Assembly (NCBI GenBank): GCA_026003335.1 | Contig: BPHB01000001.1 | Coordinates: forward strand, 2,009,001 to 2,073,000 | Source of the DNA: Chitinophagales bacterium | GTDB lineage: Bacteria; Bacteroidota; Bacteroidia; Chitinophagales; CAIOSU01 | Reading direction: 5' to 3' | DNA: 64,000 bases | Shown here: positions 45,635 through 52,339 of the stretch, piece by piece | Layout of the letters: the number at the start of each line of letters is the position of its first letter | How positions within the stretch are numbered: the stretch's first letter is position 1 | The notes under the pieces: generated by a model | What the model saw: only the letters and a program-made list of their open reading frames with translations | Told to the model about the DNA's origin: nothing | Database searches by the model: none | Translations under genes and position numbers: made by a program

Positions 45635-45665
45635 TTTGCAATTCAAGTCGTTTGCCTTAGATTTG
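45635..45665 (+). promoter_or_regulatory. Promoter TTTG-N19-TAGATTTG before the TPP riboswitch
   Basis: TTTG at 45635-45638 and TAGATTTG at 45658-45665 are separated by 19 nt, which fits the Bacteroidota -33/-7 consensus (TTTG...TAnnTTTG). Transcription would begin near 45672, about 10 nt before the riboswitch starts. Promoter and aptamer positions support each other. Confidence 0.7.
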
Positions 45666-45680
45666 CTGCACATTTCCGTC

Positions 45681-45757
45681 AATAAGGGGTGTCCGCTGAA
45701 AAGGCGGGCTGAGATTATACCCGTTGAACCTGATCCAGGTAATGCTGGCGTAGGGAA
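45681..45757 (+). promoter_or_regulatory. TPP (THI-box) riboswitch
   Basis: The aptamer core is plain to see: GGGGTG, then CGGGCTGAGA, then ACCC, GAACCTGATC, CAGGTAATGCTGGCG and TAGGGA, in order on the plus strand. This is the conserved thiamine pyrophosphate sensor. It lies between a good promoter and the TonB-dependent receptor at 45894, which it should repress when thiamine pyrophosphate is plentiful. The expression platform (45758-45893) was not resolved. Confidence 0.96.
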
Positions 45758-45893
45758 ATTTGACGAACCATTTCGGCACGTCTTTTTTAGCCCTCCTTAT
45801 TTCGGTAATTTGCTACATCTGCGTGTTCTGTCAACAATGCTGTTGCAACCGGAGACGGAAATGGGGTGATTTTTTAATGCAAAATCAATTGCC

Positions 45894-48308
45894 ATGAAAA
45901 ACCTGTTTCTTACGGTTGTTTTCAGTTTGCCTTTTTATGCTTCTTTTTGCCAATATTCCTTTACTGGGGTTGTTCGCAGCAAGACAAACGAACCCGTCCC
46001 TGGTGCCAGCGTGCAGATAAAAGGAACTCTCATAGGAGTATCCACTGATACGGAAGGGCGGTTTTCCCTGAGCGCAAAAAGCGAAACCCTTACCTTGATT
46101 ATTCGCCATATCGCTTTTGAGCCCGCAGAAGCAGTAGTTACTGCAGGACAGGAAGCACAAATAGTCCTTGAACCTAAAGCCTACTTGGGTGATGAGGTCA
46201 TCGTGAGCGCCACGAGAGCACGCCAGGGCAAAGCACCGGCATCCGCACAGATTTCTGCAGAGGAAATTGAGCAGCGTAATCTGGGAGTTGACCTGCCTTA
46301 TTTACTTGATCAAACCCCTTCGGTAGTCGTCACATCCGATGCAGGCACCGGCATCGGATACACCTATCTACGCATCCGGGGAAGCGACCAGTCCCGTATC
46401 AATGTCACTATCAACGGCATACCGTACAATGATCCAGAATCACAACAGGTTTACTGGGTTGACCTGCCTGACTTTGCTTCCTCTGTAGATAACATTGAAA
46501 TTCAGCGTGGGGTAGGTTCTTCAACTCATGGAGCAGGCGCCTTTGGCGGTACGGTGAACATTCAAACCACTACACTGAGCAGAGAGCCGTATGGCGAGTT
46601 GTCAGGCTCCTACGGGTCTTTTCGCTCGTGGAAGGCAACAGCGCGTTTCAGCACCGGCCTCATCAAAAATCACTTCACTTTTGACGGACGGCTTTCACAG
46701 ATACGTTCCGACGGCTATATCGACCGTGCATCGGCCGACCTGAAGTCGTTTTTTGCATCAGGCGGATACTATGATAACAAAACATTGTTGCGCGTAAATG
46801 TTTTTAGCGGAATGGAAAAAACCTATCAGTCCTGGTGGGGCGTACCTGAAGATTCGCTCCATACTCATCGTACATACAACTACTATAACTATCCGGATGA
46901 AACCGATAATTACTGGCAAACCCATTATCAACTGCTCTTTTCCCGACAGCTAACTGACAACTGGACACTTAACTCAGCCCTTTTTTATGTGCGCGGCAAA
47001 GGCTATTATGAACAATATAAAGGGCCCGAATATAACAATGACTTCGGATTCAATTCCAGTGTCCGTTTTTCCAGTATCGGGCTGGATGACGTAATCATCG
47101 GTGGGGATACCATTCGAAGAACTTCTTTAATCCGCAGACGCTGGTTAGATAATCATTTTTACGGGCTCACTTTCTCTGCGCTCTTTAATAAAAAACGCAC
47201 GGAGCTCATACTCGGAGGTGGCGCCAACCGCTATACAGGTGATCACTACGGAGAAATTATCTGGAGTCAATTCGCCAGCAACGGATATAAAGGATATCGC
47301 TACTATGACAACACAGGAGAGAAGTATGACCTTAATCTGTATGGCAAACTGAGCTATACGCTTTCTCCCGGCTTAATTGCTTTCATCGACCTGCAATATC
47401 GCTTCGTAAGCCACGACATGGCAGGCATCAATGATGACCGCAGGTTCATTGATATTATCAAACGACATCACTTTTTTAATCCCAAAGCCGGCATCACATT
47501 TAAAGCGGCTCCGGGACACGAGCTTTTTGCCTCCTATGCCCGGGGCAACCGGGAGCCTACCCGCTCCGACTACACCGATGCTCCTGCCGGAAAACAGCCA
47601 GTGCATGAATCTATGCATGACCTGGAAATAGGGTACCGTTTCTCAATGCCGAGAAATGTTTTAAGTCTTAACTATTATTTTATGTATTATAAAAATCAAT
47701 TGGTGCTGACCGGAGAAGTCAATGATGTGGGCTCTCCAATAAAAACCAATGTGCCGCGCAGTTATCGCACCGGAATAGAACTTATCAATAGGTTCAGCCC
47801 GGCTGACTTTCTGCGCTGGGACGCAAGCCTTACATACAGCATTAACAGAATAAAGGAATTTACCGAAGTCGTTTATGTGTATGACGAGGATTATACCCTG
47901 CTGGATGCCCAGGAAACCCTTTTTACCAATACGGAAATATCCTATTCGCCCTTCCTGATTGGTAACTCAGTGGTTACTGTTTATCCACTACGAGGTTTGG
48001 AAATAGGATGGATTTCCAAGTATGTCAGCCGGCAATACTTAGACAATACGGGGTCAGAAGACCGCATGATAAAAGGGTATTATGTAAGCAATCTGCTTTT
48101 TGCATACACCTTAAAACCTGCCTTTATAGAACACATCCGGTTTACGCTTCACCTGAACAATATTTTTAATACCGCCTATGAATCCAACGGTTATGTGTAC
48201 AGCGAAATCTATGAGGACGACTCCGGCAACCGTAGCCGTGCTGATTATAATTATTACTTTCCCCAGGCAAGATTCCACGTGATGGGAGGTATCACCGTAA
48301 GATTTTGA
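45894..48308 (+). CDS. TonB-dependent receptor, probable thiamine/precursor importer
   Basis: The 804-residue outer-membrane receptor has a signal peptide (residues ~1-19), a CarboxypepD_reg domain (~23-100; PVPGASVQIKGT), a plug domain (~110-230; LRIRGSDQSRINVTINGIPYND, GAGAFGGTVNIQT), and a 22-strand barrel ending in an aromatic residue (GGITVRF). The upstream TPP riboswitch implies that it transports thiamine, a phosphorylated form, or a thiamine precursor across the outer membrane. No SusD-like lipoprotein is adjacent, so it is a stand-alone receptor. Confidence 0.92.
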   Translation: MKNLFLTVVFSLPFYASFCQYSFTGVVRSKTNEPVPGASVQIKGTLIGVSTDTEGRFSLSAKSETLTLIIRHIAFEPAEAVVTAGQEAQIVLEPKAYLGDEVIVSATRARQGKAPASAQISAEEIEQRNLGVDLPYLLDQTPSVVVTSDAGTGIGYTYLRIRGSDQSRINVTINGIPYNDPESQQVYWVDLPDFASSVDNIEIQRGVGSSTHGAGAFGGTVNIQTTTLSREPYGELSGSYGSFRSWKATARFSTGLIKNHFTFDGRLSQIRSDGYIDRASADLKSFFASGGYYDNKTLLRVNVFSGMEKTYQSWWGVPEDSLHTHRTYNYYNYPDETDNYWQTHYQLLFSRQLTDNWTLNSALFYVRGKGYYEQYKGPEYNNDFGFNSSVRFSSIGLDDVIIGGDTIRRTSLIRRRWLDNHFYGLTFSALFNKKRTELILGGGANRYTGDHYGEIIWSQFASNGYKGYRYYDNTGEKYDLNLYGKLSYTLSPGLIAFIDLQYRFVSHDMAGINDDRRFIDIIKRHHFFNPKAGITFKAAPGHELFASYARGNREPTRSDYTDAPAGKQPVHESMHDLEIGYRFSMPRNVLSLNYYFMYYKNQLVLTGEVNDVGSPIKTNVPRSYRTGIELINRFSPADFLRWDASLTYSINRIKEFTEVVYVYDEDYTLLDAQETLFTNTEISYSPFLIGNSVVTVYPLRGLEIGWISKYVSRQYLDNTGSEDRMIKGYYVSNLLFAYTLKPAFIEHIRFTLHLNNIFNTAYESNGYVYSEIYEDDSGNRSRADYNYYFPQARFHVMGGITVRF

Positions 48309-48567: not shown

Positions 48568-49625
48568 AGTGTAAAATAAACTGTGTCAAAGGGAGCTAAT
48601 GTAACCACCCTAAAAAACAGTTTATTATGAAAAACATCCATCGCGAAGAGCTGAAAAAGAAAGCTCTCAAACAGTTCAGAACGGGCAAATCCTTGTTTGG
48701 GAAAGACGGAGCATTTGCCCCGTTGCTTAAAGAATTTTTGGAGGAAGCCCTGCAAGCCGGGATGCAAGCGCATCTGGACGAGCAATAGCGGCAAAACGGC
48801 AACCGCAGGAACGGGAAGCTGAGAAAGCCCGTAAAGACCTCGCAAGGCACCGTAGAAATAGAAACCCCGCGCGATGGCAGCAGCACCTTTGAGCCGCAGA
48901 TCATCCGCAAACGGGAAACCATTCTTGCCGACACCCTCGAAGATAAGATCATCGGCCTGTACGGGTTAGGGGTGAGCTTCCGCGACATTTCCAGCCACAT
49001 CAAACAGATGTATGGTACGGAATGTGCTCACGGATTTACAGAACCGGGGCGTACAGGATATGCTGGTGTGCATTGACAACCTGAAAGGCTTTGCCGAAGC
49101 CATTCAGACCATTTTCCCGAAAACCGAAATTCAAAGCTGCATCGTGCACCAGATCAGAAATTCACTGAAGTACATTTCCTACAAAGAGCGGAAGGCGTTT
49201 ATGGCAGATCTGAAAAATGTTTATCAGGCTCCAACCAAAGAATCTGCCGAACAAGCCCTGGACGTACTGGAACAAAAGTGGCAGCACCGCTATCCGCTGG
49301 TGATCAAATCCTGGCGCGCCAACTGGGAAAAACTATCGGCTTATTTCAAATATCCGGAAAACATCCGAAAGCTAATCTGCACGACAAACACCATTGAAGG
49401 CTATCATCGCCAGATCCGAAAGGTCACCAAAACAAAGGTGCCTTTACTTCCGATATGGCCCTGCTGAAACTGGTTTACCTGGCCACGCAGCATATCCAGA
49501 AAAAATGGACCTGCGCCTTATGGAACTGGAATCAAACTTTAGCCCAACTGACTTTTTATTTTGATGATCGTTTGAAACTATCTTTGCCATGAGAAATTCC
49601 TGCTTGACACAGTTTATTTTACACT
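48568..49625 (+). mobile_element. IS256-family element, internally deleted
   Basis: The element is framed by a perfect 22-bp inverted repeat: the left arm begins AGTGTAAAATAAACTGTGTC at 48568, and the right arm ends at 49625. The ~1.06-kb body is shorter than a normal IS256 element (~1.3 kb). The enclosed transposase is broken (see pseudogene). No 8-9-bp target duplication is visible in the flanks, so it may be an old insertion or may have rearranged. Confidence 0.88.
48627..49592 (+). pseudogene. IS256-family (mutator-type) transposase, broken
   Basis: Reading frames along this stretch give the family's N-terminus (MKNIHREELKKKALKQFRTG, IIGLYGLGVSFRDISSHIKQMYG), then a jump to VLTDLQNRGVQDMLVCIDNLKGF, KLICTTNTIEGYHRQIRK and finally LAQLTFYFDDRLKLSLP. 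Defects: an in-frame TAG at 48786, a missing block after IKQMYG (about 80 codons, including the first catalytic Asp region), and a frameshift near 49440. It cannot make active transposase. Confidence 0.85.
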
Positions 49626-49694: not shown

Positions 49695-51294
49695 TCACTT
49701 GTTCCGTTCTTTTGCAGCCTTCATGGTAGTGAGATATTTCCCGGTGGCTTTCTTACTGCTCTGATATTCGGTTACCAATCCGCGTAATAACTCATCCCCA
49801 AGCTTCATTGCCCCGAGACTGTTTTCAACAGGTTCAAGCATTCCAATTATTTCTTCATTCTCACCGCCTTTATCAAATATATAATCGGCCCATGACTCGC
49901 TGGCTGAAAGGAACCTGCTTATCTCTTTCAGGTATGCGGTAATGGCAATATACAAGTCGAAATTCCCTGCAGCAGATTCAAAACTCTTCAGGTCTGTTTC
50001 ATAAGCCGTCAGTAGTTTCCGCGCTTCCTTGCAATAGTTATTTTTGATCTCCAGCGACCTGCCGGGCCATTGGCTTCTGTCGTAATCTTTACCATTATGG
50101 ATCATGGTGGTTTTCAAATATTCATTCAGCGCGTTCACCTTATTGAACAGCGGTTTATCGTTTTTGAAGTACACTTTCATCAGATCCCCCACCAAAGAAT
50201 CCTCTTTTGCCTCTGACAAGGCCGGCTTGGTGTCCTGCTTTTTACTTTTATTATCAGCAGTGGTATTCTGACTGTCGTAAAGACTCTTATCGCTTATATT
50301 TATCTTAATCTCTTTGCCGTTTAATTTCACATCGGCCTTGCTATCAATAAAAGAACCTGCATAGTCATATTTGGGAGCGATCACTACTGTGCCCGTAGTG
50401 TCAATAAAGCCCCACTTCCCTCCGATTTTCACACTTGCCAGGCCTTGACGGAACGAATGAGCGTTTTCAAATTTCAGCGGGATCATCACTTTGCCCGTTC
50501 TGTCAATATAGCCGTAGAGGTTGTTTTGCTTTACGTAGGCCAATCCATTGTTGAAGAAATAATCTGCATCATCATAAATAAATGGAATGACGGCCTAGCC
50601 TGATTTATTAATGAACCCGCACTGGCCGTTCAATTTCGCAAATGCCAAACCTTTGTCGAAATTTGACGTACGGTCATATTTAAAAGGGATGACTTCTTTG
50701 CCGGTCTTATCAATAAACCCGTCGTTGCCATTGAGGGTTACCGATGCCAACCCTTCCGAAAAACCAAACGCTTTGTCATAGATGGGGGGGAATGACCTCC
50801 TTGCCCGTATTGTCTATATAGCCGTATTTGCCGCCTACCATACCATAAGTACCTCTTGTGGCTCCGACATTTACGGCAGCAAGACCTTCGCTGAATCCCG
50901 ATGCCTTATCATATTTCAAGGGAATCACTTCTTTGCCCGATTTATCAATGAATCCATATTTACCGCCAAAAGCCCAACCAAGCTCGCCCTTTGTTGCACC
51001 TATATTCACCATTGCAAGCCCTTCAGTGAACCACCAGGCGTCATCGTACTTCAGGGGAATGACAATTTTCCCTCTCTGGTCAATAAAACCCCATTTATCA
51101 TTCAATTGCACGCAACCCAAGCCTTCTTTAAAATCAAAAGCATTCTGATAAGCAGGAGATATTACTACCGTTCCGGCAGCATCCATATAGCCATATTTTC
51201 CGTTTTTGTCTTCAAATCGTTTTAAGTCTTGTGCGCGTACACTCATCCTTATGAAGAGCGTCATGCTTAACATTATAATTAATTTTTTAACCAT
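49695..51294 (-). pseudogene. WG-repeat secreted protein, split by nonsense codon and frameshift
   Basis: Intact, this would be a ~530-residue exported protein: a signal peptide (residues 1-21, MVKKLIIMLSMTLFI... RAQ), about nine WG beta-hairpin repeats (G-x-Y-GFID..GK.VIP..YD.A..F.EGLA.V), then a ~180-residue C-terminal helical domain. Two lesions break it: a C7 run at 50784-50790 (+1 shift; the upstream part ends in EVIPPHL) and an in-frame TAG at 50597-50595, where Lys is expected in NKSG-K-AVIP. WG repeats are surface or stress-linked; the role is unknown. Confidence 0.8.
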
Positions 51295-51297
51295 GTT

Positions 51298-52079
51298 TTA
51301 TTGTTTGTTTATCCCATTTGATTTTAGGCGTAGCTCCCGTTTGAGAATGGGATCCATCCTTATTTTACCATAAAGTGTTCTTGAAAACTTCTGACTAACG
51401 CTCACTTTACATCTTGAATATCCGGTTGATACAAAGCCAAGGTCATCGGTAGTCAACGCGAATTTATCAATTTGTTTTTTGATTCTTTTCACTAATCCGA
51501 GTTTTCTTTTCTGGTCAAGGAACAGGTAACCTTCGGGGTTGATGTATGCCTCGCCTTTAACTGCCATGTTCCAGATGATGACGGCCAGCTTTCGTGCGGT
51601 GGCGGAGATGGCCGACATTCTGCCTTTGCGGAAGCTGATGCGCTGAAAGAAATCTCTGAGCGGAGTGGAATCTTTTAGGTTGCCGATGGCATTGGCAGCA
51701 TTGCGCAGAGCGATTTTCAGCAGGTTGCTGCCCTGGGGCACTTTGCTGGAAAGCAGCTTCCCGCCACTGACTTTGTTGTTGGGCGCAAGCCTGAGCCAAC
51801 CGGTAAAATGTTTGGCAGTGGGAAATTTCCTGATGCTTTGGAGATTAAAACCGCATAGAGATTTTGCCAATAGGTTTCGGTGCTTTCCATGGCGATGGTG
51901 CGCATATTTTTTTCCGTGAGCCAGTCATCCATGTCAAAGAGGTCTTGATTGAAAACCCCGAATTCGCGGACATCATTTTCCTGTTGTCCGACCGCCACCC
52001 AATGGGAACGGCTGCCCACGTCAATGCCTGCGGCATGAGGGTTGACGACTTGCATGGCAATTGCATCTTCTTCATTCAT
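51298..52079 (-). pseudogene. IS110-family transposase, internally deleted
   Basis: The N-terminal half (MNEEDAIAMQVVNPHAAGID...GSRSHWVAVG, TIAMESTETYWQNLYAVL) is the DEDD RuvC-like domain of IS110 recombinases. The C-terminal half in another frame (FPTAKHFTGWLRLAPNNKVSGG, NLLKIALRNAANAI) is the IS116/IS110/IS902 domain. They meet at about 51855 with the middle part lost and a frame change, so no active recombinase remains. Confidence 0.85.
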
Positions 52080-52339
52080 GTTACAATGGTTTAAATGGTT
52101 AAACAAAAAAGCTCTAAAAGGATGTGCTTTTGGCAAAGCGAATATTCTGAACGTGGTATCCGTAAACTTTCGGATCCGCCACTGGAGTCATCGCAAACAT
52201 CCCAACCAGGATTGCGCGCCCGTGCTTGGAAGCGACAATTCTTAAAACGGCCTTGCAAAGAGCCGCTCTAATTTATTGAAAAAACTAATTGGTTTCTCCC
52301 GTTAGCTCAAGGAGTCAATGGTGTGGTATAGGGGGGGAT
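52080..52339 (-). other. Non-coding left flank of the IS110 remnant; possible bridge-RNA relic
   Basis: No gene is present. In intact IS110 elements the segment before the recombinase ORF encodes the bridge RNA. Here the minus strand carries a stem-loop GTGG-CGG-ATCCG / CGGAT-A-CCAC around an AAAGTTTA loop (52157-52188), compatible with such a structure, but the element's ends cannot be placed. A lone GTTAGCTC at 52301 resembles a cassette-end core without its partner site. Confidence 0.25.

Follow-up and report, generated by a model that had tools for sequence, protein, structure and literature searches.

A TPP riboswitch-linked TonB-dependent receptor in a Chitinophagales bacterium, and a PnuC-linked NadR-like kinase as candidate for the thiamine monophosphate step

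The window analyzed, a stretch of 64,000 nucleotides from a Chitinophagales genome (contig BPHB01000001.1, positions 2,009,001 to 2,073,000), carries on its plus strand a Bacteroidota-type promoter, a TPP riboswitch aptamer and a gene for a TonB-dependent receptor, arranged in this order between positions 45635 and 48308. A sequence-only reading had described a TTTG-N19-TAGATTTG promoter leading into a complete TPP aptamer and a stand-alone receptor lacking a SusD partner, and each of these three parts was borne out by the searches reported below.

The upstream promoter box, TTTG (45635-45638, plus strand), was read directly from the sequence, and a spacer of exactly 19 bases separates it from the downstream box, TAGATTTG (45658-45665, plus strand). 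Only two instances of TTTG-N17-23-TANNTTTG exist on the two strands of the 64-kb window. TPP leaders of this genome and of related ones, 47 in all, were screened over the 60 bases 5' of the aptamer plus the first 8 bases of the aptamer itself; TANNTTTG was present in 32 of the 47, versus 3.0% of 9193 control windows taken from the same loci, and mostly lay 7-17 bases from the aptamer. Its conservation at a fixed place ahead of TPP aptamers indicates that the promoter is real in that sense, and we infer a transcription start at about 45670-45673, directly 5' of the aptamer and a few bases before P1.

The aptamer (45675-45773, plus strand) was detected by cmscan as RF00059 with 66.7 bits (E = 6.6e-11), above the gathering score of 54.3, and the match spans the full model (1-105). 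Its P1 stem is formed by CGTCAA (45677-45682) pairing with TTGACG (45760-45765), and an alignment with 21 relatives showed that the conserved TPP positions are kept. In the Rfam scan this element was the sole riboswitch of the 64-kb window, and the 3.9-Mb genome contains no other TPP riboswitch.

A pattern scan of the leader found no canonical intrinsic terminator that might act as expression platform. A GACG...CGTC-T6 stem located 3' of the aptamer was rejected as a terminator: it has only four pairs and competes with P1, so that it would act in the direction opposite to that expected of an OFF switch. A complement search identified two candidate switching arms on the plus strand, CATTTCCGTC (45671-45680), which overlaps the 5' strand of P1, and GACGGAAATG (45854-45863), about 30 bases 5' of the start codon. 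The arms form a perfect 10-nt complement, a length reached in only 5 of 5000 shuffles and thus better than chance, and they are paired in the free minimum-energy fold, so that judging from sequence they could constitute a switching helix. The mean predicted accessibility of the start codon was 0.35 both with the aptamer forced and in the free fold, so these predictions do not distinguish the two folds with regard to a translational switch through these arms. In Bacteroides thetaiotaomicron, the transcripts of the receptor gene OMthi and of pnuT do not change significantly with thiamine (PMC5613172), so control of the receptor gene here could be weak or translational. Although its transcript is unresponsive to thiamine, OMthi is important when a mutant defective in thiamine biosynthesis grows on little of the vitamin (PMC5613172), a pattern that by analogy would fit translational control.

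The receptor gene (45894-48308, plus strand), located by ORF and domain search, is intact, with no internal stop and a single terminal stop, and encodes 804 aa; the product is predicted to be an outer-membrane thiamine receptor and comprises a CarboxypepD_reg-like domain (PF13715, aa 24-104), a Plug (PF07715, aa 114-220) and a TonB barrel (PF00593, aa 314-757). HflX, SSF, LOG-like and M23 genes lie upstream and broken transposases downstream, and no SusD-like ORF was found among the neighbors. Two other assignments were rejected: the SusC of a SusCD pair (TIGR04056, 73 bits versus a cut-off of 368, and no neighboring SusD) and the cobalamin receptor BtuB (TIGR01779, 57.5 bits versus 599.7). 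Directly downstream of the receptor, at 48627-49467, there is a Mutator-family (IS256-like) transposase broken by frame-shifts, and an IS110-family transposase in two broken frames occupies the minus strand at 51298-52136, adjoining two WG-repeat ORFs (49695-51294).

Using the receptor protein alone as query, 84,980 genomes were searched, which yielded 80 homologous loci across Bacteroidota with 38-47% identity, and their upstream TPP elements were located with a covariance model built from relatives. Of the 80 homologues, 79 (all except L035) have a TPP element just upstream in the same orientation, the elements of L056, L059 and L064 being weak; the link to thiamine therefore belongs to the receptor family rather than to a single locus. 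A relic aptamer, leaving the receptor free of TPP control, could account for a leader in which neither a terminator nor a clear ribosome-site switch was found, but it is hard to reconcile with a full-length element above the gathering score whose conserved positions are intact, nor with its retention across the homologues, and we regard this explanation as extremely improbable. The kinase discussed below lies upstream of the receptor in 37 of the 80 loci, 34 of them also with PnuC, and permease and/or kinase were present in the fetched locus in 40, while the PnuC gene of the genome under study is not linked to its receptor. In the loci that were read, TPP riboswitches stand mostly ahead of the receptor in genomes without ThiC, or ahead of the thiC operon in genomes with it. 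Tandem TPP aptamers before one receptor gene were observed in L083 (G018:C68:13145-13361) and in L029 (3891-4097).

The genome that contains the window (G000, rated 100% complete) yielded no match to ThiC, to thiamine pyrophosphokinase (TPK, PF04263) or to the ThiE/TenI family (TMP-TENI), and carries an intact ThiL (G000:C1:727874-728866, 310 bits). With no match to ThiC or ThiE, the cell would be expected to require thiamine that is already assembled, either free or phosphorylated, while the presence of ThiL together with the lack of a TPK match means that some activity producing thiamine monophosphate (TMP) is needed. These data suggest that the organism is a thiamine auxotroph, dependent on outside vitamin B1, and along with the conserved TPP elements they uphold the earlier proposal, made from the letters alone, that this transporter is linked to thiamine. 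Auxotrophy is made less certain by the fact that YjbQ can substitute for ThiE in some Bacteroidetes, and thiamine kinases of another type, such as ThiK, might likewise supply TMP. In a relative that has the kinase (G006), the ThiL match (G006:C68:48386-49067) is split and contains stop codons, reflecting either an assembly error or a real loss.

TPP riboswitches control transporters of thiamine precursors too, in other phyla. Such precursor transporters are listed in PMC6593275, and the receptor might accordingly be thought to import a precursor or degradation product of thiamine (HMP, thiazole or aminopyrimidine) instead of the intact vitamin. A cell without a match to ThiC or to the ThiE family could not join precursors by the usual enzyme, however, and the permease linked to these receptors is of the PnuC/PnuT type, which makes a precursor substrate very unlikely.

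The only PnuC-type gene of the genome, coding for a PnuC/PnuT-type permease, is located 300 kb from the window (G000:C1:1752063-1752587), and directly behind it lies the gene for a stand-alone NadR-type kinase of 172 aa (G000:C1:1752593-1753039). This pair (G000:C1:1752063-1753039; L112:1474-2534) follows an LD-carboxypeptidase gene; it is unlinked to the receptor and has no TPP riboswitch of its own. The sequence-only reading recognized the promoter-aptamer-receptor unit correctly but did not include the remainder of the pathway, the PnuC-kinase pair outside the window.

The kinase matches PF13521 only, and its similarity to NadR is confined to the kinase domain; identification as a two-domain NadR (NMNAT plus RNK) was rejected, since TIGR01526 scored 88.8 versus 341 bits and the protein has a single domain. 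For a relative of this kinase from an uncultured Flavobacteriales bacterium (L025), an AlphaFold2 model (pLDDT 94) matched NadR best, with a TM of 0.89 to 8x7f in Foldseek and, in VIA-align, a Z of 22.6 at an rmsd of 1.9 over 169 residues; thymidylate kinases came next. The Walker A motif (GPESxGK in the family) is retained, as are a conserved Asp and a conserved Arg, whereas P12, A37, Q59, W86 and D116 are not shared with the three NadR sequences used for comparison. The NadR-type (RNK) fold, as modeled, does not prove the substrate of the kinase. Its likeness to NadR-RNK in sequence and fold, as well as a permease scoring above the PnuC equivalog cut-off (TIGR01528), would also be expected if the pair served ordinary nicotinamide riboside salvage unrelated to thiamine, with TMP supplied by another kinase or imported.

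The distribution of the pair was compared in 59 genomes from 21 families, including the one under study, after exclusion of one genome that was 57% complete. The NadR-type PF13521 kinase was present in 39 of the 42 genomes without ThiC and without a strong ThiE match, and in none of the 15 with ThiC; a PF13521 match in one ThiC-positive genome (G039, 49.9 bits) was rejected as the same kinase, being a different sequence with no match to the L025 kinase. For kinase against ThiC, Fisher p was 1.2e-8 with the G039 match counted as kinase and shared ancestry left uncorrected. In 14 genomes from 10 families the kinase lies at most 4 kb upstream of a TPP element on the same strand, with gaps of 52-185 bases in 11 genomes and of 653-1939 bases in the other three. 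In 20 genomes a PnuC gene lies ahead of the kinase at a distance of up to 4 kb, and in 18 of these the distance is no more than 54 bases. ThiL was matched in 59 of 60 genomes when the 57%-complete one was counted. Three genomes lacking ThiC (G017, G042 and G055) carry PnuC and neither kinase nor TPK, and are not explained by the model.

Gene order in the uncultured Flavobacteriales locus mentioned above (L025:607-4645) is TPP riboswitch, PF01910-like gene, PnuC, kinase, TPP element and receptor, which places the PnuC-kinase pair itself under a TPP riboswitch there; the first riboswitch scored 65.7 bits with Rfam, and the small PF01910-like protein 21.1 bits, under the cut-off of 24.9. In the PnuC tree, the permease of our genome groups with the TPP-adjacent copies of G001 and G014 (support 100/99), TPK-linked PnuT is nested within kinase-linked PnuC, and NadR-linked PnuC sits on a long branch. 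In the kinase tree, TPP-adjacent and unlinked copies are mixed and the deep forks weakly supported, so this tree alone does not establish the kinase as a clade separate from NadR. A DUF4301 protein follows the kinase, or is fused to it, in several flavobacteria. It is a free neighbor in Flavobacteriaceae (L067 and L074), and fusions of kinase and DUF4301 occur in L223 (2886-5000), L224 (2036-4216), L225 (2163-4484) and L226 (3269-5389); all four fusions adjoin PnuC and three of them also a TPP-receptor locus.

Several of these observations run counter to nicotinamide riboside salvage. The pair tracks the loss of ThiC and sits at TPP-receptor loci, and in G037 and G049, which have neither ThiC nor the kinase, TPK occupies the position of the kinase beside PnuC. 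In addition, G073 and G245 encode, alongside the stand-alone kinase, a NadR with both domains and a separate PnuC, which indicates that NadR and this kinase are different genes, presumably with different jobs, and residues P12, A37, Q59 and W86 are unlike those of solved NadR. We therefore consider salvage of nicotinamide riboside an unlikely function of the pair, while crediting it more than either a precursor substrate or a relic aptamer. The PnuC-linked stand-alone PF13521 kinase is instead probably a thiamine kinase, undescribed in the literature searched, that makes TMP for ThiL and replaces TPK across thiamine-auxotrophic Bacteroidota; genes annotated as nicotinamide riboside transporter plus ATPase would then encode a thiamine permease and its kinase. 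No paper on a NadR-like thiamine kinase, or on DUF4301 in thiamine metabolism, was found in the open-licence literature, and for this step only ThiL and ThiN are listed in PMC6593275.

The computed elements (aptamer, promoter box, receptor family with its TPP linkage, gene matches found or lacking, and linkage of the kinase in relatives) are best joined by a single explanation, to which we assign a probability of roughly 0.88: a thiamine receptor under a TPP-sensing leader, PnuC, probably the kinase, and ThiL together effect vitamin B1 salvage in an auxotroph. Ligand binding, the sign and mechanism of regulation, the transported substrate and the kinase reaction are the steps that we infer in this scheme. 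Transcription from the Bacteroidota-type promoter would yield a leader carrying the TPP aptamer as sensor of the end product, so that receptor expression would fall when TPP is plentiful. The receptor, driven by TonB, would import thiamine intact, as such or in phosphorylated form, and the PnuC/PnuT-type permease would carry thiamine over the inner membrane; the adjoining NadR-type kinase would probably phosphorylate it to TMP, which ThiL would turn into TPP.

As a riboswitch-receptor unit the locus is of an ordinary kind, yet it is useful, as it suggests a need for outside vitamin B1 and pinpoints the receptor. It also exposes a gap, namely that auxotrophic Bacteroidota keep a ThiL requiring TMP, mostly without ThiE and TPK, a gap for which the NadR-like kinase offers a specific candidate. 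If this assignment is true, permease-kinase pairs now annotated as NAD salvage need correcting, and predictions of vitamin dependency with them.

Among known systems, the closest fold to the linked kinase is the ribosylnicotinamide kinase domain of NadR (6gye/6gyf, 8x7f, 1lw7), from which it differs by lacking an NMN adenylyltransferase domain, by family-specific residues and by its linkage to TPP loci. The receptor recalls SusC/RagA proteins in having an N-terminal CarboxypepD_reg-like domain before plug and barrel, whereas its TIGR04056 score is below the cut-off and SusD is absent. In predicted role and in phylum it agrees with Omr1, a thiamin-related TonB receptor from environmental surveys (PMC12442306), where omr1 and pnuC dominate uptake expression in Bacteroidetes; the specificity of Omr1 is marked as unclear in that study, whereas the receptor described here is placed in a pathway reconstruction. 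The nearest system to have been characterized is OMthi (BT2390) of B. thetaiotaomicron, a TonB receptor linked to a TPP riboswitch; a strain unable to make thiamine requires more of it once OMthi is deleted (PMC5613172). The two systems resemble each other in architecture and TPP linkage: both have a TPP riboswitch directly before a TonB-dependent receptor and a PnuT-type inner-membrane permease as partner (a predicted one here), with pnuT in a separate operon. B. thetaiotaomicron, however, makes thiamine and has Tnr3 (TPK) beside pnuT, whereas here the neighbor of PnuC is a NadR-type kinase, and ThiC, ThiE and TPK had no match. TonB-dependent thiamine receptors controlled by TPP riboswitches are already known (OMthi, Omr1; PMC5613172, PMC6977713, PMC12442306), and the locus described here adds a well-supported new member to the group.
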